IMG/VR virus record: IMGVR_UViG_3300038620_000113
Location: 1-60,912 of that record
Direction: 5' to 3' (one strand)
Origin: a virus
Length of the DNA stretch: 60,912 bases
Positions within the stretch are counted from its first letter, which is position 1, and the number at the start of each line of letters is the position of its first letter. The position numbers and the translations under genes were made by a program. Shown one piece after another: positions 9,545 to 50,444 of this stretch. Under the pieces are notes generated by a model, which made no database searches, was not told where the DNA came from, and was given only the letters and a program-made list of their open reading frames with translations.

Positions 9545-9643
9545 TTATTTATCTTCAATTTCTTCTAAGTAAATATGAACATTAAATTTAACAGGTTCTG
9601 CTCTAAGTTCTGAACTTTCAAGTTTTGAATTAAAGTATTTTAT
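9545..9643 (-). pseudogene. 3' remnant of a gene cut off by a dam copy
   Basis: On the minus strand a coding-like frame of about 32 codons (ending in FNVHIYLEEIEDK then TAA) has no start codon and opens just after a TGA within the 3' end of the dam gene at 9630. Composition and codon use look coding. I read it as the tail of a gene that stood upstream of the helicase before a dam copy replaced its 5' part. Its identity cannot be told. Confidence 0.4.
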
Positions 9644-10520
9644 TCATTCTTAAAAGTTCTTGACAACGGGGATTAATCCATATAGATTCCGTTCTGGCAG
9701 CATGTTTTGTAGCTGATCCTTTTCCTTGTAATTTACTTCCTTTTATTTTTCCAGCCATACTAGAAGATGTTGCAAAATCAAATCTTTTCCAATTACAATC
9801 TTCTAGTTGTTTATAAATTTCATTATTGTAACCAGATAGGGTTACTGAACCTTCAACTTGTAAAATTAAGTTAATCAATTCTTGGTGGTGGTTGTTGGTC
9901 ATTTCGTGTTTATATTTTTCGCTTTTTCGTGTGGATTCAACATAAGGTGGATCAAGATAAAATACTGTATTTGGACTATCATATTTTCTAATAACTTCCA
10001 AAGCATCTTGATTGTACAAATAAGTATTATTTAATCTTTGGTGCCACTTTTCAAATAGATTTTGGTGAGCTGTCCATTTTGAAGATACTTCCGCCATATT
10101 TTTTGTAGAAGCTAATACGGCCCGACCCCAATCACCTTCACTTTTACAGTACATTCCACCAAACCCTTGGTTAAACATAATATAAAAAGCCCAAAAACGT
10201 TCTAACTCATTATTATAAAGTTCTTCATTCCAAAACCATTTCAAACATTTAGCAAATTCTTTACGTGAGTAAAAAGTTTGGTTAATGATCTTTTCCATCT
10301 TTTGATAGTCATCCCGTAAAATTCGATAAAGATTGATTATATCAGAATTAAGTTCATTAAGAATTTCGGTTTTTACTGGATTTCTATAAAGAAAAAGGTT
10401 GGCTGCACCTGCATAAGGTTCTACATAAACATTCGTTCGAGGAATGAATTTGTTTATCTTAGTCTTATGATTTCCTTTACCTCCCATATAGCCAAAAGGG
10501 GGAATTAAATCTTTTTTCAT
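9630..10520 (-). CDS. dam: D12-class N6-adenine DNA methyltransferase, copy 1
   Basis: 296 residues. The SAM-binding motif is PPFGYMGGKGNHK (about 7-19), followed by PYAGAANLFLYR. The catalytic motif is FYLDPPYVEST (about 192-202). All are typical of Dam/DpnM-type enzymes acting on GATC-like sites. The N- and C-terminal thirds are nearly identical to the copies at 11802 and 12699. The middle (about residues 115-180), where D12 enzymes keep their target-recognition region, differs strongly. The start is 3 bp from the uvsX stop, so it is translated in an operon with uvsX. Likely role: protection from host restriction. Confidence 0.9.
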   Translation of the reverse strand: MKKDLIPPFGYMGGKGNHKTKINKFIPRTNVYVEPYAGAANLFLYRNPVKTEILNELNSDIINLYRILRDDYQKMEKIINQTFYSRKEFAKCLKWFWNEELYNNELERFWAFYIMFNQGFGGMYCKSEGDWGRAVLASTKNMAEVSSKWTAHQNLFEKWHQRLNNTYLYNQDALEVIRKYDSPNTVFYLDPPYVESTRKSEKYKHEMTNNHHQELINLILQVEGSVTLSGYNNEIYKQLEDCNWKRFDFATSSSMAGKIKGSKLQGKGSATKHAARTESIWINPRCQELLRMNKIL

Positions 10521-10523
10521 AGC

Positions 10524-11744
10524 CTATTCTTCAGGTTCATCACTTTCTTTAATTTCATCAACATCAAGTTCAAAACTTTCAGAAAAATCCTCAAATTCAA
10601 ACTTAGGCTTAATAGCTTTTTCATCTATCTTTTCAAGAACAACATCATTAAATACTTTTGGGTTAAAAAATCCTTTAGAATCATTTGTAGGTACAGTATC
10701 ACAAAGATGTTTAATAACAAAGTTTCTAGCATTTGGATTGGGTTCAAAACGATAAACTTCTTCAAGTTCACCAGTTTCTTCATTAAACATTTCAATTATC
10801 TTATCATCGTTAGGATCATAAGTTTCCATTTCTTTCTTTTTAAGTTTTTCAAGTTTTCCACGACCAATTCCACAAACATCCCAACTTACATAATCTTGAA
10901 GTCCAACATAAGGATTCATTCCTTCTGTAAAACTAACATGGATTTTAACAGTGCTAGGAATTGTTAGTCTTGACTTAAAAGGATTAACAGTTATAATAAC
11001 ACCTGTTTTTTGTTTATCAGAATCTTTTTGATATGCTTTACTCAGCATTCCAACAAAACTAGCAGGATAAATTGCACCATCACCACCTTTTATGGCACGT
11101 GGGTCGCCGTATGCATTCATGGAATTATAAACTTGATTTGTATAAATCATTGGTATTTCAAGATTAGCAAATCTTGAAACAGTCAAACGAAAAAGCTTTC
11201 TGATTTCTCTGGCAGGCGTAAAATCCTGTTTTGTTTCATTTTTTTGAACATCCTCAATTTCTTTTTCAGTTGCAAGTTGATTTAGTGAATCAAGAATAAC
11301 AACTGTTTTTAAGTCATCATTTGAAAGTTTGTTATCTTCTTTATGTTTTTCAAAAGTAGTTGCAAGACGTTCAAAATAATGATGGGCTTCCTTAAATGTA
11401 CCAACTAAAACATGCCTAAAACCTTCAAGATCAATACCGAACTTTTTAACTTGTTCGGGTTCAATGGCATTTTCAGAATCAACAAATATTACATAATATC
11501 CTTTATCTTGAAATTGCTTTGCTGCATTCAAACACAAAAAGGTTTTTCCTGTTTGGGGTTCACCCGCAAAAGAAACGAGTCTATTGCCCGGGTAGCCTCG
11601 AAATATACTGCCTGATATACAAGCATTAAGAAGATAATTTCCTGTATGAATGTATTCGCGAATTCCACGAATGTTAGACATGTTATCGCCTCTATCATCA
11701 AATTCTGAAACCAAACTGCTAATATTTTTGAAAGCGTTGCTCAT
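10524..11744 (-). CDS. uvsX: UvsX/RecA-like recombinase
   Basis: 406 residues. The Walker A motif GEPQTGKTFLCLNAAK lies at about 61-76, and IFVDSENAIEP follows. Walker B is VVILDSLNQLA, and an L2-like loop with NQVYNSMNAYGDPRAIKGGDG contains the usual recombinase Gly-rich segment. The C-terminus is acidic (DEIKESDEPEE), as in RecA and UvsX. The protein promotes strand exchange for repair and recombination-dependent replication. It is flanked on both sides by dam copies, so the T4-type order has been broken by duplication. The 57-bp gap to the next dam gene could hold a promoter. Confidence 0.92.
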   Translation of the reverse strand: MSNAFKNISSLVSEFDDRGDNMSNIRGIREYIHTGNYLLNACISGSIFRGYPGNRLVSFAGEPQTGKTFLCLNAAKQFQDKGYYVIFVDSENAIEPEQVKKFGIDLEGFRHVLVGTFKEAHHYFERLATTFEKHKEDNKLSNDDLKTVVILDSLNQLATEKEIEDVQKNETKQDFTPAREIRKLFRLTVSRFANLEIPMIYTNQVYNSMNAYGDPRAIKGGDGAIYPASFVGMLSKAYQKDSDKQKTGVIITVNPFKSRLTIPSTVKIHVSFTEGMNPYVGLQDYVSWDVCGIGRGKLEKLKKKEMETYDPNDDKIIEMFNEETGELEEVYRFEPNPNARNFVIKHLCDTVPTNDSKGFFNPKVFNDVVLEKIDEKAIKPKFEFEDFSESFELDVDEIKESDEPEE

Positions 11745-11801
11745 AATTACTCTACTTTTTATTTATGTTTTACAATACTAATATAGAAAAAATACAATGA
11801 T

Positions 11802-12695
11802 TTACAAAATTTTATTCATTCCTAAAAGTTCTTGGCATCTTGGATTTATCCAGATAGATTCAGTTCTGGCAGCATGTTTTGTAGCTGATCCCTTTCCTTG
11901 TAATTTACTTCCTTTTATTCTTCCAGCCATGTATGAAGATGTTGCAAAATCAAATCTTTTCCAATTACAATCTTCTAGTTGTTTATAAATTTCATTATTA
12001 TAACCAGATAAAGTTACAGAGCCTTTACAGTTTAAAATTAAATCAATCAAGTTAGAATGGTGGCTATCAGTCATTTCATATTTGTACTCCTCTTTCTGGC
12101 GGGTAGAACGAACATAAGGAGGATCAAGATAAAAGACTGTACTCGGATTGTCGTATTGTTTAATAATTTCTAAAGCATCTTGGTTATGTAAGTAAGTATT
12201 TTTTAAGCGTTTGTTCCATGATTCAAACATATTTTGACGGAGTATCCATTTTGAAGATACTCCCGCCATGTTTTTTTTAGAAGTTAATATATTACGACTC
12301 CAACTACTATCACTTTTAATGTAGGTACCACTAAACCCTTTGTTAAACACTATATAAAAGGCCCAAAACCTTTCAAATTCATTACTATGTTCTTCTTCAT
12401 TCCAAAACCATTTCAAACATTTAGCAAGTTCTTTTCTAGAAAAAAAAGTTTGGTTAATGATCTTTTCCATCTTTTGATAGTCATCCCGTAAAATTCGATA
12501 AAGATTGATTATATCCAAATTAAGTTCATTAAGAACTTCAGTTTCTACAGGATTTCTATAAAAGAAAAGGTTAGCTGCACCTGCATAAGGTTCTACATAG
12601 ATAGATGTTCTAGGGATAAACTTGTTTATCTTAGTCTTATGATTTCCTTTTCCTCCCATATACTGAAAAGGGGGAATTAAATCATTCTTTTTCAT
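11802..12695 (-). CDS. dam: D12-class N6-adenine DNA methyltransferase, copy 2
   Basis: 297 residues. FQYMGGKGNHK and FYLDPPYVRST are intact, so it should be active. The first 100 and last 90 residues match copy 1 almost residue for residue, while the segment from FNKGFSGTYIKS to NTYLHNQ is divergent. The differences cluster in the presumed target-recognition region. The stop is 57 bp from the uvsX start. The gene begins 3 bp after copy 3 ends, so copies 2 and 3 are a tandem pair. Sequence specificity cannot be predicted. Confidence 0.9.
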   Translation of the reverse strand: MKKNDLIPPFQYMGGKGNHKTKINKFIPRTSIYVEPYAGAANLFFYRNPVETEVLNELNLDIINLYRILRDDYQKMEKIINQTFFSRKELAKCLKWFWNEEEHSNEFERFWAFYIVFNKGFSGTYIKSDSSWSRNILTSKKNMAGVSSKWILRQNMFESWNKRLKNTYLHNQDALEIIKQYDNPSTVFYLDPPYVRSTRQKEEYKYEMTDSHHSNLIDLILNCKGSVTLSGYNNEIYKQLEDCNWKRFDFATSSYMAGRIKGSKLQGKGSATKHAARTESIWINPRCQELLGMNKIL

Positions 12696-12698
12696 AAA

Positions 12699-13592
12699 TT
12701 AAAATATTTTATTGGAACCTAAAAGTTCTTGGCATCTTGAATTAATCCATATAGATTCGGTTCGGGGAGCATGTTTTGTAGCTGATCCTTTTCCTTGTAA
12801 TTTACTTCCTTTTATTCTTCCAGCCATACTAGAAGATGTTGCAAAATCAAATCTTTTCCAATTACAATCTTCTAGTTGTTTATAAATTTCATTATTATAA
12901 CCAGATAAAGTTACAGAGCCTTTACAGTTTAAAATTAAATCAATTAACTTTTGATGATGAGAATCAGACATTTCATGCTTATATTCCCCACTTTTTCGTG
13001 TGGATTCAACATAAGGTGGATCAAGATAAAATACTGTATCTGGGCTATCATATTTTTTAATTATATCTAAAGCATCTTGATTATATAAGTTTACATTCTT
13101 TAAGCGAGAATGCCATTCCGCAAAAAGGTTATTTCGGGTGCTACTTCTTGAAGTAGCACTAGCTCGATTATTTGTTGATGTTAATATTTCACGTCCCCAA
13201 CTACCATCACTTGTAACTTGAATTCCACCAAACCCCTGATTAAACATAGTATAAAAAGCCCAAAATCTTTCTAACTCATTATTATATTTTTTTTCATTCC
13301 AAAACCATTTTAAACATTTAGAAAATTCTTTACGAGAATAAAAAGTTAAGTTAATGATTTTTTCAATGTTTTGATAATCATCTCTAAGAATAGAGTAAAG
13401 GTTAAATATATCTGAATTTAATTCATTCAAAACTTCTGTTTCTACTGGTTGACGGTAAAAGAAAAGATTCGCAGCTCCAGCATATGGTTCTACATAGATA
13501 GATGTTCGAGGGATGAATTTATTAACTTGAACTTTATTACTTCCTTTTCCTCCCATATACCGAAAAGGAGGAATTAAATCTTTCTTTTTCAT
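12699..13592 (-). CDS. dam: D12-class N6-adenine DNA methyltransferase, copy 3
   Basis: 297 residues with FRYMGGKGSNK and FYLDPPYVEST. It is again nearly identical to its sisters at both ends but differs in the centre (FGGIQVTSDGSWGRE, then NNRASATSRSSTRNN). It begins 3 bp after the polymerase gene stops. The three dam genes and uvsX thus form one leftward operon behind the polymerase. The pattern suggests tandem duplication followed by selected change of target specificity, or recombination with relatives that have other centres. Confidence 0.9.
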   Translation of the reverse strand: MKKKDLIPPFRYMGGKGSNKVQVNKFIPRTSIYVEPYAGAANLFFYRQPVETEVLNELNSDIFNLYSILRDDYQNIEKIINLTFYSRKEFSKCLKWFWNEKKYNNELERFWAFYTMFNQGFGGIQVTSDGSWGREILTSTNNRASATSRSSTRNNLFAEWHSRLKNVNLYNQDALDIIKKYDSPDTVFYLDPPYVESTRKSGEYKHEMSDSHHQKLIDLILNCKGSVTLSGYNNEIYKQLEDCNWKRFDFATSSSMAGRIKGSKLQGKGSATKHAPRTESIWINSRCQELLGSNKIF

Positions 13593-13595
13593 AAA

Positions 13596-14864
13596 TTAAA
13601 ATATTGAATTAAATACCACAAGAGAATCACTAAGTTCTGAATAACCCATAACCTTAATAAATCTGTTAATAGTATTAAGAAATGTTACTCGAAACATTGT
13701 ATCATAATCAAACTTAGGTGCAATCTCTTGAGGAAAATCGCCCACTTTATATGCAAATACATTAACTGCGTTACTGCTTAACTTTGTATCAACATTTGTA
13801 TGTATATAGTAATACTTAATTTTTTCACCAGATAATATAAACTGATATTTGTCTTTATACTTTGAGTTATAAAGTAAATAATTATAATAAGCTGCAGCTT
13901 TTAACTGAATGGGGGTTCCCTTGTGAATTTCTAACGCAGTAGTATCATTAATAATCCAGTTTTCATAGTTATTGCAACTCTTTGTAATAGCAATATCTTC
14001 TATATCGCAAAGCTTGTATTCTTTTTTAATTTCACTTATGTTTTTAACAAACTCATTTATAGAAAAGTTTTTAGAATTCTTAAATATATAAACAAGTTGT
14101 TCTTTAATTTTATCTCGAACAAACTTTGGGGTTTCACCTCTTACAAGTTCTACACCTTTTGATGAAAGATTGTCATAAGGGTTTTTGATAAGCTTTTCAA
14201 AATTTCTATTAAGCGATCCATCCGAATCAAAACCTGTAGGTTCCCACCTTGGAGCCAACACATACTTTTTCTTTGCAAGCCAAAGTCCGGTTACTGAATA
14301 AGCTTCTGGTTCAAAAACCTGATAAGGTTTGCCACGATTATTATAATATGGCACATAAAATTCATTAGAAAGTTTTTTAAGTTTATTTTCTATAACACCT
14401 TTTAATCTGTTATTATAAAGAGTTACTATATAATCAATTTCATCAGTATTATCAGGATTTATATTAGTACTTTTAAAAACTTGATCCAATTCAACATAGT
14501 TTGAATCTGTATCAATATAATTAACGACATTTTCTTTTATCGGCTTAACCTTTTCATGATTTATACCCATTGCAGTATGAAGTTCTTTATCTTTATGCCA
14601 TGCTTTCTTAAAGTAATTATCAATTACATGAGCCATTTCTTTAATTTGCTTTTGCCCTTGCAATGTTACAGCTTCTGCAACATTTTCATTGTAACATGTA
14701 AAATTTTTATAGCCAATGGTTCCATACATAGAATTAATAAGAATCTTAAATGCACTAGCTTGATTATCATAAAAATCTTTAAGATGTTTAAGACGTTTAA
14801 TTTCAGATTCTATTTCATCTTTAGTTGGATTTTCGGAAAGATTTGCATAATTGAATTCTTCCAT
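13596..14864 (-). CDS. 43: DNA polymerase gp43, C-terminal (polymerase) part of a split family B enzyme
   Basis: 422 residues, about half of a family B polymerase. Motif B is present near the N-terminus (KILINSMYGTIGY, about 42-54), then motif C (YIDTDSNYVEL, about 117-127) and the thumb region. Motif A (DxxSLYPS) and the 3'-5' exonuclease motifs are absent, and no N-terminal half lies upstream. The protein starts MEEFNYANLSENP. Split gp43 genes with separate exonuclease and polymerase parts are known in some T4 relatives. The missing half must lie outside the window. No intein C-fragment is visible at its start, so the break is a plain gene split. Confidence 0.8.
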   Translation of the reverse strand: MEEFNYANLSENPTKDEIESEIKRLKHLKDFYDNQASAFKILINSMYGTIGYKNFTCYNENVAEAVTLQGQKQIKEMAHVIDNYFKKAWHKDKELHTAMGINHEKVKPIKENVVNYIDTDSNYVELDQVFKSTNINPDNTDEIDYIVTLYNNRLKGVIENKLKKLSNEFYVPYYNNRGKPYQVFEPEAYSVTGLWLAKKKYVLAPRWEPTGFDSDGSLNRNFEKLIKNPYDNLSSKGVELVRGETPKFVRDKIKEQLVYIFKNSKNFSINEFVKNISEIKKEYKLCDIEDIAITKSCNNYENWIINDTTALEIHKGTPIQLKAAAYYNYLLYNSKYKDKYQFILSGEKIKYYYIHTNVDTKLSSNAVNVFAYKVGDFPQEIAPKFDYDTMFRVTFLNTINRFIKVMGYSELSDSLVVFNSIF

Positions 14865-31889: not shown

Positions 31890-32453
31890 ATGACTATGAA
31901 TTGGGAAAACGTAATTGAAACCGCACCAATTTCCCTCTTGAATTTATTGAAGGAAACTTCAAAGATTTACGAACGTCCTGATTACCATCCCGAAGAATCC
32001 ACTAGGGTTCATATTGAAGTGGTAACACGACGGTTAGAAGTTACAAACGACCCTGATCTTATCATGGCGGGGTTTATCCATGACCTAGGTAAATGGCCAC
32101 ATAATCAAAAAGGTGCTGGTAAAGATGGTTGGCCAACCGCGCCTGGACATGCAAATTATGCTAGGGCATTGGTTGAAAATAACCAAGATATTTGGGATTG
32201 GATTAAATCGTGGGGTGCAAATCCCCAAGTGGTGGCTGAAATTAGTGGACACCACATGAAGATTAAAAACTTTGATAGTGAAAAGCCAAAGCGTCAAAGA
32301 AAGATGAAAAACCAAGTTTCCCCAAAATCTTGGATAAAGCTTCAAGTGTTTACGGAGGCTGATAACATGCTTCGCCCCTTCTACTATGAAGGTGTTTCTA
32401 ACGAAAAGGCTGAAGTCCTTTTGAGTATTTCATCCAAGCAACGCTTTCTATAA
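31890..32453 (+). CDS. HD-domain phosphohydrolase
   Basis: 187 residues. HIEVVTRRL (His41), GFIHDLGKWP (His64-Asp65), an EISGHHMK helix (about 117-124) and VFTEADNML (last Asp) give the H...HD...H...D metal set of the HD superfamily. In phages such proteins act on nucleotides or on phosphate ends of RNA. The start lies 25 bp from a strong promoter, and the next gene, a 5'-kinase, follows after 18 bp. A role in RNA end healing, perhaps as a 2',3'-phosphatase, is inferred from this pairing only. Confidence 0.75.
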   Translation: MTMNWENVIETAPISLLNLLKETSKIYERPDYHPEESTRVHIEVVTRRLEVTNDPDLIMAGFIHDLGKWPHNQKGAGKDGWPTAPGHANYARALVENNQDIWDWIKSWGANPQVVAEISGHHMKIKNFDSEKPKRQRKMKNQVSPKSWIKLQVFTEADNMLRPFYYEGVSNEKAEVLLSISSKQRFL

Positions 32454-35344: not shown

Positions 35345-36562
35345 TTATTTTTGCTGTTTTTCGTGGCGAAAGGTACGGTAACAGCCTTTCCGGTCGATAT
35401 TCAATGCCGCATTATAATCGGCATTAGTTGAATATCCACAATCAATACATCTAAACCGCTCTTGAGAGGAACGATTTTCACGATGCAATGAACCACAATT
35501 AGAGCAAGTCTGACTAGTATAAGCCGGTGAAACCTTCATCAACTTGATACCAGTTTCACTACAAACTTGCTCTAGTTTCTTTATAGTTTTAGCGTAAGAC
35601 CAGTATTGAAGTTTGTTGTTAGTCTTTTTGCCTAACTTGGATTTATGCTTGACTTGTTTGAGGTCTTCGATAGAAAGCAATTCCACACCGTTTAGGTCTA
35701 ATTTTTGGTTAATACAATAATTGATTAAATTATCTCGTTGAATCAGTTTCCGCTTGTAAGCCTTAGAGCCGCGTTGTTTACGGGTGATTTGTTCATAGAG
35801 GCTATCAAATTCTTGACCTATTGATTGATTATCACTAGTCTGAATAAAGACCTTCTGACCTAAGTCAATTCCTATATGAGAACAATCGGGATTAGCCATT
35901 GGCTGCGGGGCATTCTTCTCCCAAAACAAGTTAATAAATGTCTTACCTGATTTTCTTTGTACTTGAATAGTATTTTTGAGTTGATACTGGCTATTGAGTA
36001 ACTGATTGGAATGACGGTGTTGTTTAAGTGGTAGATGAATGGTATAATAACGGTTTTTAGTATTGTAGTTGCGGTAGGGAGTGGTTATTTTAACGAAGTT
36101 ATCAAAATGATTTCCCCTTCTTATGTTACAAAGAGCACTCTCTAGGCTTAAATTAACATTATTCAAATTAGGCTTAGTAAAATATTTGCTTAAATGAACC
36201 GGCTTGAGATTGAGTTTTTTGAATCGCTTTTGTAAGAATGGATGATTGGGCTTATGTTTTATCAAGTAAGCATAAACCTTTTGATAGCGCTTATAACGGC
36301 GCTGGTTGGCTTTGGAACTTTGAGATCGAATGATTTCGGATGCCTGTTTATAGGCGGCTTTCCGATACTTAGAATGCTCAATGTTACAAACAATAGGTAA
36401 ATTAGAATTGCCTAGAGTGGCCCGCAAAGGCAATTGATTGGCTAGAATCAAATCTAAGTAATGATTAACACAACGAGTATAATCTTCCATTACTTGATTC
36501 AGGAACCTTAACTTACCTTGATTGGTTATCCGAGTAATGCTATGCCGTGAGGTTTTAATCAA
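35345..36562 (-). CDS. tnpB: TnpB RNA-guided nuclease of an IS200/IS605-type element
   Basis: 405 residues, the standard TnpB size. RuvC-I is SHIGIDLGQKV (about 231-241), RuvC-II ELLSIEDLKQV (about 292-302) and RuvC-III NADYNAALNI (about 380-389). The zinc ribbon is TCSNCG...FRCIDCG. All catalytic D-E-D residues are present. Its GC content is clearly above the neighbours', showing recent transfer. No TnpA transposase is visible, so the element is non-autonomous or TnpB is domesticated. Its reRNA would overlap the 3' end and run below 35345. A 60-bp remnant of another copy lies at 31231. Confidence 0.9.
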   Translation of the reverse strand: MIKTSRHSITRITNQGKLRFLNQVMEDYTRCVNHYLDLILANQLPLRATLGNSNLPIVCNIEHSKYRKAAYKQASEIIRSQSSKANQRRYKRYQKVYAYLIKHKPNHPFLQKRFKKLNLKPVHLSKYFTKPNLNNVNLSLESALCNIRRGNHFDNFVKITTPYRNYNTKNRYYTIHLPLKQHRHSNQLLNSQYQLKNTIQVQRKSGKTFINLFWEKNAPQPMANPDCSHIGIDLGQKVFIQTSDNQSIGQEFDSLYEQITRKQRGSKAYKRKLIQRDNLINYCINQKLDLNGVELLSIEDLKQVKHKSKLGKKTNNKLQYWSYAKTIKKLEQVCSETGIKLMKVSPAYTSQTCSNCGSLHRENRSSQERFRCIDCGYSTNADYNAALNIDRKGCYRTFRHEKQQK

Positions 36563-44898: not shown

Positions 44899-44918
44899 AA
44901 GTTATTTTAAGTAAAAGT

Positions 44919-44944
44919 TACACCGAAAACTGGCTTGGTGTAAT
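44919..44944 (+). other. Hairpin after the PAPS-reductase gene
   Basis: TTACACC and GGTGTAA pair around a 12-base loop. No U-tract follows, so it is at best a weak terminator or an RNA processing site. Confidence 0.4.
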
Positions 44945-44981
44945 AGAAATGTCTGGTTTTTAAAATTTTTGGTTCCATCGC

Positions 44982-45012
44982 TTGACAAACATTTTCTTTT
45001 TGCTTAAATTAG
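44982..45012 (+). promoter_or_regulatory. Promoter TTGACA-N17-TAAATTAG
   Basis: TTGACA at 44982-44987, a 17-bp spacer and TAAATTAG at 45005-45012. The leader contains GTTGGC...GCCAAC inside TAGAAA...TTTCTA, a small stem-loop before the ATG at 45078. The first 15 bases of the leader resemble that of the 45687 promoter. Confidence 0.7.
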
Positions 45013-45077
45013 AAGGTAGAAAGTTGGCGGAGCTAAAAAGGCCAACAATAATTTCTAACATCTAACCATCATTTATT

Positions 45078-45272
45078 ATGATTACCGCGTTAATTATTTG
45101 TATTTCTATTGTAGTTTGGTTTTTCCAACAAGTCATATGGGGCATCTTATTAAACTATGCTGACATACAAAGTGATATTGTTTCTTGGGTAATTTCGGTT
45201 ATTGCTTATATATCTTTTACTGTAGCAATTGTTATTGCTGCAATTTTGGCAATTCAACATTTTACCTCTTAA
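45078..45272 (+). CDS. Small two-pass membrane protein
   Basis: 64 residues, nearly all hydrophobic: about 2-27 (MITALIICISIVVWFFQQV and on) and 35-60 (IVSWVISVIAYISFTVAIVI), with a short polar turn YADIQSD. Expressed from a strong early-type promoter with a hairpin leader. Possibly a superinfection-exclusion or host-takeover peptide; no family is recognised. Confidence 0.6.
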   Translation: MITALIICISIVVWFFQQVIWGILLNYADIQSDIVSWVISVIAYISFTVAIVIAAILAIQHFTS

Positions 45273-45289
45273 CAAACATTCTCTACTTG

Positions 45290-45475
45290 GACGCTATTTA
45301 CTTTAGGAATAACGGCTCCTTACACCGCAAAGCAGAAATCATTGTTAATGGTGCAGAAAGGGATAACAACTATCAGGGTTATATTTCCTTAGAACAATTC
45401 TAAGCAGTGCAAGAAGTTGCCCGCCAAAAGCACCAAGAATTGAGCACTCCGGGTTTACAACTTAAAGGATAGGTG
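45290..45475 (+). pseudogene. Decayed gene fragment of foreign composition
   Basis: The frame reading YFRNNGSLHRKAEIIVNGAE, ...GYISLEQF, stop, AVQEVARQKHQEL...LQLKG, stop looks like protein but has in-frame stops and no start. GC and codon use are higher and more bacterial than in neighbouring genes. Identity unknown. Confidence 0.5.
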
Positions 45476-45489
45476 CACCTGTTTTTATT

Positions 45490-45520
45490 CCCCCGTCTAA
45501 CTCAGTCGGGGGATTTTTTT
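45490..45520 (+). terminator. Strong terminator
   Basis: CCCCCG and CGGGGG form the stem around TCTAACTCAGT, followed by A and T8. Confidence 0.9.
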
Positions 45521-45686
45521 TATCTTTCCACCCGCCTCAAAAATTAACTTTTAACGATTAACTTATCATAAGTTTAGTGCGAGGGAATTTTAACATCTAA
45601 TCCTTTTAGCGAAGCTTTTGAGGGGTTTTTTTATGGTCAAAATTAAGTTTTAAGAAAAGAAAATTAAAATTTTCTGGAACCACCTC

Positions 45687-45717
45687 TTGACTCCTGTTTT
45701 CTTTTTACCTATATTAG
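45687..45717 (+). promoter_or_regulatory. Promoter TTGACT-N17-TATATTAG
   Basis: TTGACT at 45687-45692, a 17-bp spacer and TATATTAG at 45710-45717. The start site would be near 45724, at the beginning of a structured leader. Confidence 0.75.
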
Positions 45718-45723
45718 GGGTAG

Positions 45724-45880
45724 AAAGTTGGTAGGAAAAAAACCAACCAATGAGAAATCAAGATTTGTTTAACCACCATTCTAGGTGGTTAAACAGAAGA
45801 GGCTGCAGATGCTACTTTAAGCAAGTACCTCTAATAATGTTTTAATACCAACCTCAGTGTAGGTTGGGGTTCTTTTTATT
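45724..45880 (+). promoter_or_regulatory. Structured leader RNA with terminator, riboswitch- or attenuator-like
   Basis: P1 GTTGGT/ACCAAC (45727-45747). P2 GTTTAACCACC/GGTGGTTAAAC, a perfect 11-bp hairpin (45767-45794). P3 AGAGG/CCTCT enclosing TACTT/AAGTA (45798-45832). Then a terminator CCAACCT/AGGTTGG with a T-rich tail (45848-45880). GTTGGTA at 45727 can also pair with TACCAAC at 45846, which would break both P1 and the terminator. That is the logic of a transcriptional switch in front of the gene at 45906. No known class is recognised. Confidence 0.6.
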
Positions 45881-45905
45881 AGTTAAACCACAATTCAAAA
45901 CAGCT

Positions 45906-46145
45906 ATGTTTACCAGTAACGAAGCCACAAAAAACGAAGGAAATATCTTCAGCCATAAAAAAGCTGAAGACACATTAAATAAAATGGCAAACAATAATGA
46001 TGATTTGTCATTCGATACCACAATTGATGGATATACTTGTCTTCGTGCAACAGATGGCTGGACTTATGTTCTTTTGCCTTTACGCCCCGGTCATGCTGCT
46101 ATTGTAGCATATGATGAAGATAACAACGTGGTAGGCAAAATTTAA
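45906..46145 (+). CDS. Small protein behind the structured leader
   Basis: 79 residues from the ATG at 45906 (MFTSNEATKNEGNIF), 26 bp after the leader terminator. The frame is open further upstream, but only through the terminator itself, so this start is preferred. The C-terminal half is a small beta-domain (YTCLRATDGWTYVLLPLRPG, HAAIVAYDEDNNVVGKI). No family is recognised. Expression is probably controlled by the leader. Confidence 0.6.
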   Translation: MFTSNEATKNEGNIFSHKKAEDTLNKMANNNDDLSFDTTIDGYTCLRATDGWTYVLLPLRPGHAAIVAYDEDNNVVGKI

Positions 46146-46172
46146 AAAAATAAATAAGTAAAACTATTCTTA

Positions 46173-47010
46173 ATGAAAATTATAAGCTTTTACGAATATT
46201 TATCTGAAAAACGCAGACGCCCAGATTTAAATGTATTAGAAAAAGAAGATTTGGGCAGTTTTTTAAAACGCTATATAAAAGATGATCCCACTAATTGGTA
46301 TCTTTCTTTTCGCGAAAAAAAAAACTGTAACTTTTACAAATCCTTTTACTGCATATGACACGCCCGCTGGATACTATTGTTATCCTTTAGACGCAATAAA
46401 ACACGGTTCAAAAACAATTTATCAAGAGTTGTTAGATCTTTCTAAAAAATATGATAAAGATTTTGATATTCATAGTAGAGTATTTCCTTATGGACCTGGT
46501 AATATAATTCAAATTATAAAAGTAAAAAGTAATGCTAATATATTATCTTGGAATACAAGTTTTAAAGATGTAAAATATTATTTAAACAAGCTTTATAAAC
46601 ATTTAGAAAGTAATAATATTACAAATGACGAAAATGTTTTTAGTTTTATTGAGTACGCTATTAATTACTATAATGATTCAGAAAATAAAGATAATCTTCG
46701 ATCTATAATAAATTCAAATAACTTTATTGAATTAGATAAAAAATATAAAAGACAGCTTTTTGACATTATTCATTATGATGGAGAATTAGCTGGTAATGCT
46801 GTTTGGTTTTTTGTACTAGCATCACTAAATGCTATAAATAAAGACGATCCTAAAAAAATAACAAACACTTTTGTTAAATTAGGAATCGATGGATTTAGAG
46901 ATTCTGAAAATAAAAAATGGTTTATTCATCCCAATGAAGAATTACAAGCTGTACTTTTCAAAAAAAGTATAATTGAAGAATCCTATTCTTATATTCAAAC
47001 AAATAAATAA
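46173..47010 (+). pseudogene. CTS-tagged 'KRRNP/TPAGYY' family copy 2, frameshifted in A10
   Basis: The tag MKIISFYEYLSE is followed by KRRRPDLN and NWYLSFRE, then a run of ten A (46315-46324) shifts the frame. With nine A it would read REKKTVTFTNPFTAYDTPAG, exactly the family signature of the copies at 28527 and 56552. The second frame continues to the conserved end LGIDGFRDSENKKWFIHPNE...QAVLF. It may be corrected by polymerase slippage in the A-run, be a recent pseudogene, or reflect a sequencing indel. AATAAATA is upstream. Confidence 0.7.
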
Positions 47011-47400: not shown

Positions 47401-47533
47401 ATTAAAATGAAAATAGAACTTTTTCAAGAATAAACAAGATAGTATAAAAGTTCAAGTTTTAAATTTCTTTAAGGCTCCAAGCAAAGTTAGCCGTAATTAG
47501 AACGTCAACATCGGATTGGAAATAAATTATAAG

Positions 47534-47618
47534 GAGGAGTGGCCGAGTGGTCGAAGGCGCCTGCCTGCTAAGCAGGTGTGGTTAATAGCCACCGTAGGTT
47601 CGAATCCTACCTCCTCCG
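47534..47618 (+). tRNA. tRNA-Ser(GCU)
   Basis: GGAGGAG pairs with CTCCTCC. The D-arm begins GGCCGAGTGG with normal U8, the anticodon loop is CTGCTAA (GCT), and there is a long variable arm. Discriminator G, followed by CA, so CCA is not fully encoded. It lies alone 75 bp upstream of the methyltransferase gene. Confidence 0.9.
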
Positions 47619-47692
47619 CATTAGCTTTTAATTTGATTCAAACAACAATAATAAAAAATTTAATTCTCACTAAGTCGTAAAATTAAATAGCT

Positions 47693-48994
47693 ATGAATAA
47701 CAACACAGTAAAAAATTTTTGTAACAAGTTACAAAAGTGGTATTCAGAATCTTACAATAAAGTAACAGTTTCAAATAATCTAAACACTGAAGATATTCTT
47801 ACTGAAATTATTATTCAGTGTACTTACTTATGGTTTTTGAAGGAATTAAAAATTATTTCAAGCGACTTATTTGATAAACAAAAGATTTATACTATTTTAA
47901 AGGCTAGTAGTAATGATACTGGTTATTTTAACGGAATTTTACAAAATGTATTTTTTAATGGGATGAAAACAAATCTTAGTGAATATGCTATAGTTCAAAG
48001 TAAAGACTTGTTTTTAGATATTGAAAATTTTGAAAGCTTGTTAAACAAAATACCTTATTTAGATACAGAACTTTTTAATAATTCAAAGTTTCTTTATGAT
48101 AACCCATCAGAACTAGATTCTACACATATTCCAAATACACTGTTTTTCAATGATAACAAAAGTGGTATCATTGACTTGCTCAGTCAATATTCTTTTTTAA
48201 CAAATGAAAAAGAAGTATCACAATCAGATTCTGAATTAGACCCAGAAGTACTAGGAACCGTTTTTGAAAATTTACTAGCACAGTATAATCCCGAAACAAA
48301 GACAACCGCTAGGAAACAGTCTGGTTCTTTCTATACCCCCAAAGAAATTGTAAATTATATGGTAAATGAATCAATTGTTAAACAACTTTCTGAAAAAACA
48401 AGTTATCATGAAGATTCTATTAGAAATTTAGTTGTACATGAAAAAGTTGATAGTTTTAAAAATGAAAATAATAAAGAAGAATTAGTAAGAATAATAAGTA
48501 GGTTAAAAATTCTTGATCCTGCTTGTGGTTCTGGTGCTTTTCCTATTGGAGTTATTCAAAGACTTGTTAAGGTTCTTAAAGTTCTTGATTCTGATAATAC
48601 ACTATGGAAAAGGTGTCAACAGGAAATAGCCGAAGGATATGATAAAGATTTTCCAGAACCCACAAGTTTAGATATTGATAAAAGATTAAACTTAATTGAA
48701 GAAACTTTTAACCAAAATAATAAAAGTTTAGATTATTCAAGAAAGTTTTTTATTTTAGTAAACAATTTATATGGTATAGATATTCAGCCGATGGCAGTTC
48801 AAATTTGTAAACTTAGATTTTATCTTTCTTTGCTTATAGAACAAGAAATTGATTATAATGAAATAAATTATGGAATATCTTATTTTCCAGACTTAAGCCA
48901 AACTTTTATTGTTGAAAATGCTTTAACAATGGACATGAATGATAAAAATTCTAAAAAGCCAAAAGGTCATATTGGAATAGATGATATAATGTAG
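47693..48994 (+). CDS. Eco57I-type adenine methyltransferase, N-terminal part before an in-frame amber
   Basis: 433 residues. GSFYTPKEIVNYMV (about 208-221) and motif I, LDPACGSGAFPIGVIQ (about 274-289), are those of Eco57I/type IIG and BREX-like adenine methyltransferases; LYGIDIQPMAVQICKLR (about 360-376) is motif II-III. The sequence stops at TAG (48992-48994), before the catalytic NPPY. The next gene continues in the same frame. Composition is as AT-rich as the phage. Either the two halves work as separate polypeptides, or the amber is read through, or this is a recent break. Confidence 0.75.
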   Translation: MNNNTVKNFCNKLQKWYSESYNKVTVSNNLNTEDILTEIIIQCTYLWFLKELKIISSDLFDKQKIYTILKASSNDTGYFNGILQNVFFNGMKTNLSEYAIVQSKDLFLDIENFESLLNKIPYLDTELFNNSKFLYDNPSELDSTHIPNTLFFNDNKSGIIDLLSQYSFLTNEKEVSQSDSELDPEVLGTVFENLLAQYNPETKTTARKQSGSFYTPKEIVNYMVNESIVKQLSEKTSYHEDSIRNLVVHEKVDSFKNENNKEELVRIISRLKILDPACGSGAFPIGVIQRLVKVLKVLDSDNTLWKRCQQEIAEGYDKDFPEPTSLDIDKRLNLIEETFNQNNKSLDYSRKFFILVNNLYGIDIQPMAVQICKLRFYLSLLIEQEIDYNEINYGISYFPDLSQTFIVENALTMDMNDKNSKKPKGHIGIDDIM

Positions 48995-49003
48995 AACAAT
49001 TTT

Positions 49004-50413
49004 ATGAATAAGTTAAAAGTAAACAGTTTTGATATAGTGATCGGAAATCCCCCATATATAAGGACAAAAGACATTCCTCAATACACAAAGCAACATTTAA
49101 GTTCCTCTTACGAATCAGCGACAAACTCCTATGACATCTACGTCTGCTTTATTGAAAGGAGCATGAGGCTTTTGGATAATACAGGGGATCTTGTATTTAT
49201 ACTACCGACCAAATTTTTTAATGCAGACTATGGCTTGGGTATACGCAAGTTGATATGGAGGAATCGATGGCTATATAAGGTGCTTGATTTCAAGGCTGCC
49301 CAAATGTTTGAGTCCTCAACAAATTATACCTGTATTCTTCATCTCAAAAGCTCCTCTCAAAACAGCTATCAATATACAAGCTTCGGCAGCAATCCTTCAA
49401 AAGAAACCTTTATTGCCTATATCAATGACGCTCGTATTGATCATCAAACTATAGAAGAATTTACTGATAATACTTCTAAGCTGACAGAGGGCTATTGGTA
49501 CTTTATTCCTCCTGATAAGAGGCCCGTGTTTAGCAAGATGGAAAGAATGGGAGTTACCTTAGAGGGATTAACCGATGATATTTTTGTGGGACTCCAAACG
49601 AGTGCAGACCCTATATATATACTAGAAAAGACAAAGCAAGGGTATTATTATTCGAAATACCTGGAAGCCCATGTAGCACTGGAAGACGAATTTATGCGCC
49701 CCTTGCTTCGGGGCGGCGAGATTCAACGCTACAAAGTAGATTTTCAGAATCAGTGCATTATTTTTCCCTACCATATCAATGGCAACCGCGCCAGTTTGAT
49801 CCCGGCAAATGAGCTCCAGCAAAACTATCCGTTTGTATGGGATTATCTGTGCCGCTGCGAAGAGAAACTACGAGGCCGCGAGCAAGGGAAAATGGATCAT
49901 GAAGGCTGGTATGGGTTTGGTAGGACACAAAACATTGCGGCTTTTGGTCAATCTAAAATCATGACACAGGTGTTGGCCAGGGGAGCAGCGATGGTGCCGG
50001 ATAGAGAGGGGATGTACCGCTTCGTAGGGGGTGGCAACGCAGGCGGGTATGGCATCGTACTAAGACAGGATGCGGGTATTTCCTATGAATGTTTGGTAGC
50101 GCTGCTTAATAGCAAATTGCTGGAAACCTATCTACAGTATCATTCTAGCCTATTCCGGGGTGGCTATTATTCTTACTCAAAGCGGTACTTGAAGGAACTG
50201 CCTATAGTTATTCCAAACGAGGAGCTACAGGCTTATCTAGCAGCTCGTGTCAATAGCATACTTACCAAAAAGACACAAGATCGTGATACAACTGCCGAAG
50301 AACAAGAGATCGACCGCTTAGTCTACCAGCTCTATAGGCTGACTTATGATGAAGTTTTGGTAATTGATCCCGAACCGCCCTTTAGCCGGGAAGCATACAA
50401 CAACAATAATTAA
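49004..50413 (+). CDS. Eco57I-type adenine methyltransferase, C-terminal catalytic part
   Basis: 469 residues. Motif IV, DIVIGNPPYIRTKDI, stands at residues about 9-23. A long target-recognition domain follows, with YWYFIPPDKRPVFSKMERMG, GLQTSADPIYIL and the TaqI-like C-terminal segment. GC content rises sharply from about 49050 on (GGCCGCGAGCAAGG-like stretches near 49870), unlike the N-terminal half and all neighbours, so this part is a recent bacterial acquisition. The frame is the same as upstream with only a TAG between. No endonuclease motif was seen; protection from restriction is likely. Confidence 0.75.
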   Translation: MNKLKVNSFDIVIGNPPYIRTKDIPQYTKQHLSSSYESATNSYDIYVCFIERSMRLLDNTGDLVFILPTKFFNADYGLGIRKLIWRNRWLYKVLDFKAAQMFESSTNYTCILHLKSSSQNSYQYTSFGSNPSKETFIAYINDARIDHQTIEEFTDNTSKLTEGYWYFIPPDKRPVFSKMERMGVTLEGLTDDIFVGLQTSADPIYILEKTKQGYYYSKYLEAHVALEDEFMRPLLRGGEIQRYKVDFQNQCIIFPYHINGNRASLIPANELQQNYPFVWDYLCRCEEKLRGREQGKMDHEGWYGFGRTQNIAAFGQSKIMTQVLARGAAMVPDREGMYRFVGGGNAGGYGIVLRQDAGISYECLVALLNSKLLETYLQYHSSLFRGGYYSYSKRYLKELPIVIPNEELQAYLAARVNSILTKKTQDRDTTAEEQEIDRLVYQLYRLTYDEVLVIDPEPPFSREAYNNNN

Positions 50414-50444
50414 TCATAAATAAATATGAAAAGAATCCAAAAAT

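Follow-up and report, generated by a model that had tools for sequence, protein, structure and literature searches.

What is made from a viral methyltransferase gene that is interrupted by one in-frame amber codon and changes its composition close to that codon? The gene occupies positions 47693–50413 of record IMGVR_UViG_3300038620_000113, a linear, viral, metagenome-type contig of 60.9 kb that was analysed over its full 60,912 nucleotides (the window). Its product could be two interacting chains, a read-through fusion or the remains of a freshly broken enzyme. The anatomy of the gene is well supported: it is very probably a nuclease-less phage derivative of a bacterial enzyme, with a swapped C-half and a stop in a loop.

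Phage background

The phage appears to infect Bacteroidota-type bacteria, judged from its gene content and its start regions, which are A-rich and without Shine-Dalgarno sequences across the record. The replication genes are T4-like and comprise UvsX, a family B DNA polymerase, a DnaB-type helicase, SbcD, and a sliding-clamp-like protein. Both ribonucleotide reductase subunits, PAPS reductase, and five tRNAs are also encoded. One of these, tRNA-Ser(GCT) at 47533–47619 (+), lies just 5' of the interrupted gene and is not a suppressor. Three D12-class (Dam-type) adenine methylase genes stand in tandem at 9630–13592 (-), between UvsX and the DNA polymerase B gene, and one of them directly follows UvsX; with the interrupted gene, the phage thus has four adenine methylase loci. 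The DNA polymerase B ORF at 13596–14864 (-), 422 aa long, aligns only with the C-terminal portion of a profile of 856 positions, and the polymerase, like the methylase, may be encoded in pieces.

No near DNA matches to the 36.7–60.9 kb part were found among GenBank phages, and single-sequence scans with either half of the methylase gene returned no close phage relatives. The 80 viral loci reached through NrdB have neither half and do not share the gene order. Elsewhere in the window, neither half recurs as an additional copy or as a silent cassette.

Reading frame, stop and the two ORFs

Translation of 47693–50413 gives a single frame whose sole internal stop is the TAG at 48992–48994 (+), which falls between motif I (DPACGSGAFP) and motif IV (GNPPY). 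The preliminary description, which placed both halves in one frame with only this TAG between motif I and NPPY, was right on this point. ORF1 (47693–48994, +; 433 aa; GC3 0.16) is the phage-like N-half with a helical region and motifs X and I–III, and ends in the TAG. An intercistronic gap of 9 nt, or three codons (AACAATTTT, 48995–49003, +), separates the TAG from the ATG of ORF2 (49004–50413, +; 469 aa; GC3 0.44), the C-half with motif IV NPPY, the rest of the catalytic fold, and the TaqI-type specificity domain. Besides the TAG, there is no disruption across the 902 codons, and the catalytic motifs are all intact.

Same-frame neighbours with 3-nt gaps are found elsewhere in the phage, at 10521–10523, 12696–12698, and 13593–13595. 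At 10520–10526 (-) the order is UvsX-TAG-GCT-ATG-methylase, and the methylase starts one codon past the UvsX stop in the same frame. This junction serves as a naturally occurring control for genes of one frame that are separated by a TAG, and since such close neighbours are common in the phage, the same-frame adjacency of ORF1 and ORF2 is unremarkable when taken alone. The start region of ORF2 scores -1.0, and the three coupled starts with 3-nt gaps score -4.0, 0.7, and -1.3. Against decoy ATGs, the ORF2 start ranks no better than the top 10%, and among real starts it reaches the 19th percentile.

Enzyme family and the missing N-terminal domain

The Pfam domains Eco57I, N6_Mtase, and TaqI_C are split over the two ORFs, with Eco57I in both and TaqI_C in ORF2; together with DPACGSG and GNPPY, which are read directly, they bear out the earlier assignment to the Eco57I type. 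The order of SAM motif I, motif IV (N/D)PPY, and a C-terminal TaqI-type domain is that of gamma-class N6-adenine methyltransferases. The best matches of both ORFs are the PADLOC type IIG models; BREX PglX, DISARM DrmMI, and MADS2 were considered and set aside as far weaker matches. ORF1 is 34% identical to the middle part of a 1133-aa Parabacteroides protein, in which its start corresponds to about residue 160, and the relatives carry ~170–220 extra residues N-terminal to that point. These extra residues may form a PD-(D/E)XK nuclease, as suggested by the family and by an E-x-K motif in the Parabacteroides distasonis enzyme, where a D-x6-E-x-K-like pattern was read by eye in the N-terminal region.

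No further N-terminal reading frame precedes ORF1, and the locus lacks the putative endonuclease domain of its type IIG relatives. It also lacks the single polypeptide of such an enzyme, because the TAG at 48992–48994 is read under the standard code. Taken together, ORF1 and ORF2 most likely derive from a type IIG adenine methyltransferase of Bacteroidota (Eco57I family, gamma class) and have no nuclease part. ORF2 keeps 48 of 50 conserved columns (96%). ORF1 keeps 32 of 40 (0.80) against a minimum of 0.825 among the relatives, and several of its changes lie beside the split.

Composition junction

A change-point analysis with a codon-position model places a single shift at 49037, with a gain of 57 lnL units. 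In a GC model with two change points, a compositionally foreign block extends over 49037–50396 (+), with 2-lnL intervals of 49019–49118 on the left and 50378–50417 on the right. The block has a GC content of 43.5%, and the richest other 1350-bp window of the record reaches 36.7%. The GC3 rises across the junction from 0.17 to 0.45, a step of +0.28. When 110 relatives were cut at the same motif, the mean step was -0.08 (sd 0.09, maximum +0.05). The step in the phage gene is therefore larger than in any of the 110 relatives, and the change in composition is abrupt, as expected of a recombinant (chimeric) gene.

The shift lies ~45 nt past the TAG and downstream of both the TAG and the ORF2 ATG. 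This agrees with the earlier statement that the gene turns GC-richer within about 60 bp of the TAG. The GC-rich block runs from the NPPY codons through the ORF2 stop; the TAG and the ORF2 ATG fall just outside it, in phage-like sequence. The test resolves tens of bases, and at that scale the result hints, without proving it, that stop and restart are both of phage origin.

Origin of the C-half and the linker

The closest relative of ORF2 is a truncated gene in a Bacteroidetes metagenome-assembled genome (L008, 47% identity). A tree groups the two at a support of 100/99, followed by a sample from the same phylum. The donor itself was not found, as the next best match after L008 in 395 genomes sampled from its phylum is only 41% identical. 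The GC3 of L008 is 0.32, which is below that of ORF2.

Both halves also occur together in bacteria. One single gene (L260) carries both, at 31% identity for the N-half and 30% for the C-half, and the pair L266/L278 is a further instance of single bacterial genes that join an N-half of the ORF1 type to a C-half of the ORF2 type. An origin of the halves in two unrelated enzyme families is ruled out by such genes. In ORF1-like relatives, the distance from the position of ORF1 residue 411 to NPPY is usually ~100 residues and up to ~150, and this linker often contains an F(D/E)PEWMFG element. The element is missing in the phage, where the linker before NPPY has ~34 residues; ~65 residues were lost compared with the relatives. 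In L008, the F(D/E)PEWMFG element stands immediately before the ORF2-type C-half. This linker element, together with the presence of both halves in the single gene L260, places the halves in one broad family. The exchange is thus best described as a putative swap of the specificity half inside one type IIG family, with most of the linker lost. The earlier proposal that a phage methylase recombined with a bacterial one is retained for the junction at NPPY and the Bacteroidota C-half (47%, 100/99), and it is refined in that the halves do not come from unrelated enzymes, since both occur in single bacterial genes. The loss of ~65 linker residues and the absence of an N-terminal domain of ~170–220 residues are additions to it.

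Three other loci show related arrangements. A viral contig (L154:3-4022) combines a half of the ORF1 type with a short ORF for NPPY in a different frame and with an ORF of 632 aa in which the recognition domain is repeated twice; the arrangement resembles an array of cassettes or else a locus that has been disrupted. A second viral contig (L132:975-2378) has a C-half-only ORF of 467 aa that starts 17 residues before the FDIVIGNPPY strand and lies directly 3' of the end of a methylase-like gene, which itself runs off the end of the contig. The sequence examined for this contig contains no half of the ORF1 type. A gene on a Planktothrix plasmid (L003:4365-6500) ends near the end point of ORF1, with no C-half downstream, and is a lone N-half.

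Predicted structure

The read-through chain was modelled with AlphaFold2, with the TAG set to Q for modelling only, and reached a pLDDT of 86 and a pTM of 0.87. The modelled strands are beta-1 (273–275), beta-2 (359–363), beta-3 (405–407), and beta-4 (446–451). The stop corresponds to residue 434, inside the longest stretch with pLDDT <50 (417–436), a loop modelled as disordered that connects beta-3 with beta-4. With a cut at the TAG, ORF1 retains strands beta-1 to beta-3 together with the SAM motif, and ORF2 receives everything from beta-4 on, including the recognition domain. The strands beta-1 and beta-4 adjoin in the standard strand order of the methyltransferase fold, and the two halves would therefore meet across the sheet. 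Among solved structures, CamA is nearest in fold (TMt 0.82), and M.BseCI, BrxX, and MmeI (type IIL) come next. The catalytic fold is predicted to be complete, provided that both halves come together; the read-through fold is uninformative on the assembly of two separate chains. A full-length relative (L168) was also modelled for its N-terminal domain, and this model was poor (pLDDT 61) and was left out.

Two chains, one chain or a broken gene

The explanation that accounts best for the locus is that a bacterial allele supplied, through recombination, a new C-half from motif IV onward, target recognition domain included. This replacement would have given the phage a new methylation specificity, probably protecting its DNA against host restriction. 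With the TAG in the beta-3/beta-4 loop, the gene would now be read as two ORFs, ribosomes would re-initiate at the ORF2 start 9 nt past the TAG, and the two chains would reassemble as in fragment complementation. The product would be a modification-only phage methylase of two cooperating chains with a swapped specificity half, a proposal that is given slightly less than an even chance. The lone lesion in 902 codons, the retained motifs, the position of the TAG in the longest very-low-confidence loop, the 48 of 50 columns kept in ORF2, and an ORF2 start score within the range of the coupled starts with 3-nt gaps in the phage all speak for it. On the other hand, no relative was found split at this position, the full-length relatives with both halves covered being one ORF each; the ORF2 start ranks at only the 19th percentile, and ORF1 retains slightly fewer conserved columns than every relative compared.

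The continuity of the full-length relatives and the changes at conserved columns of ORF1, slightly more than in any compared relative and several of them near the junction, would also fit a recent nonsense change that inactivated a functional, continuous chimeric methylase, with the ORFs still open because little time has passed. Moreover, an in-frame ATG within 12 codons of the stop is not rare given the AT-rich genome, and the loss is perhaps tolerated, with three other adenine methylases in the phage. A fresh break of this kind would have left, by contrast, only one lesion in the whole gene, with all catalytic motifs intact and ORF2 at 96% of its conserved columns, and it would have fallen in a loop that is predicted to be disordered rather than in a structured part. 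It is the chief alternative, although one that stays clearly below an even chance. An error of sequencing or assembly is improbable: the record is a metagenome-type viral contig and no second copy was found by single-sequence scans of both halves, but a misjoined GC-rich block needs two joins, at the NPPY codons and at the ORF2 stop, with phage-like genes on both sides, and of a substitution error in a gene that is really continuous there is no sign. Some full-length enzyme from read-through of the TAG is more improbable still. The ORFs share a frame and the read-through chain is predicted to fold with high confidence; however, TAG is a working stop that ends 11 of the 67 listed ORFs, a sense reading would join UvsX to the Dam-type methylase, and there is no suppressor among the five tRNAs found in this record, which is a fragment. 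Genome-wide recoding was likewise rejected, for TAG (table 15) because of the same 11 ORF ends and the same fusion of UvsX to a D12 methylase, and for TGA because table 4 gives no better gene structure.

If two cooperating chains do assemble, the locus would encode a natural adenine methyltransferase divided into a SAM-binding half and a catalytic and recognition half, and exchange of a single cistron could change the specificity of the phage's protective methylation. A more specific form of this proposal is possible but rather unlikely. It holds that the locus is a natural two-chain N6-adenine methyltransferase whose catalytic fold is divided after motif III and before motif IV. The second chain (motif IV, recognition domain, and stop) would be exchanged as a unit to change specificity while the catalytic/SAM chain is kept, with the split just outside the exchanged block. 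Even as a broken gene, the locus would clearly document a phage-bacterial swap of a type IIG specificity half at the NPPY codons.

Comparison with known systems

Bacteroidota type IIG enzymes: Enzymes matched by PADLOC REase_MTase_IIG, such as that of P. distasonis (WP_009274871.1), show the helical region, motif I, NPPY, and the recognition domain arranged as in the phage. A Parabacteroides enzyme of this group is 34% identical to ORF1 over 480 aligned columns, and the Bacteroidota type IIG enzymes share the C-terminal signature TAxEQxID..YxLTYDEV of ORF2. They are single chains, mostly of 1.1–1.3 thousand residues, with an N-terminal domain and a linker of ~100 residues, whereas the phage has two ORFs, no such domain in either, and a linker of ~34.

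CamA: The CamA enzyme of Clostridioides difficile (PDB 7lni), closest in fold to the read-through chain, is likewise an orphan adenine methyltransferase. Unlike the phage enzyme, it is a single chain of 577 aa from a bacterial chromosome, and the identity is 19%.

Split methyltransferases: The two-chain C5 methyltransferases M.AquI and M.EcoHK31I, as well as fragment complementation, are documented (PMC3404938), and like the putative ORF1/ORF2 enzyme, each of the two is a single methyltransferase made from two polypeptides. However, both methylate cytosine at C5 and are divided in the variable region or around motif IX, while the phage locus concerns an adenine enzyme cut between motifs III and IV in the catalytic sheet, whose assembly is putative. 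Type IIG genes that occur as two ORFs or are frameshifted have been described in Campylobacter and Helicobacter (PMC4335053, PMC3936762); those splits are frameshifts, often in homopolymer tracts, in contrast to the stop codon and the common frame of the phage ORFs. In a limited literature search, no naturally occurring adenine methyltransferase turned up that is divided at this point, after motif III and before motif IV. Recognition domains are known to move by recombination (PMC3077401).

Phage methyltransferases: An HF1/HF2-type halovirus DNA methylase (AAO61365.1) is a phage-encoded relative of ORF2 at 30% identity, but it is a continuous protein of 1288 aa from an archaeal virus. Methyltransferases acquired by phages protect phage DNA against restriction endonucleases, for example in lactococcal 936-type phages (PMC4190342). 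These orphan methyltransferases are other enzymes in another phage group, and the abstract of that study mentions no split.

Other features of the window

A TnpB-like ORF at 35345–36562 (-) has a Cas12f1-like TNB domain, a transposase profile, and a GC3 of 0.36; no TnpA was noticed, and the ORF is possibly a recent arrival. The region 44899–46281, ~1.4 kb, has a single ORF of at least 80 aa (93 aa) in an otherwise gene-dense phage. The ORF at 31890–32453 (+), which encodes 187 aa with a GC3 of 0.37, is the second most GC-rich gene in the window.
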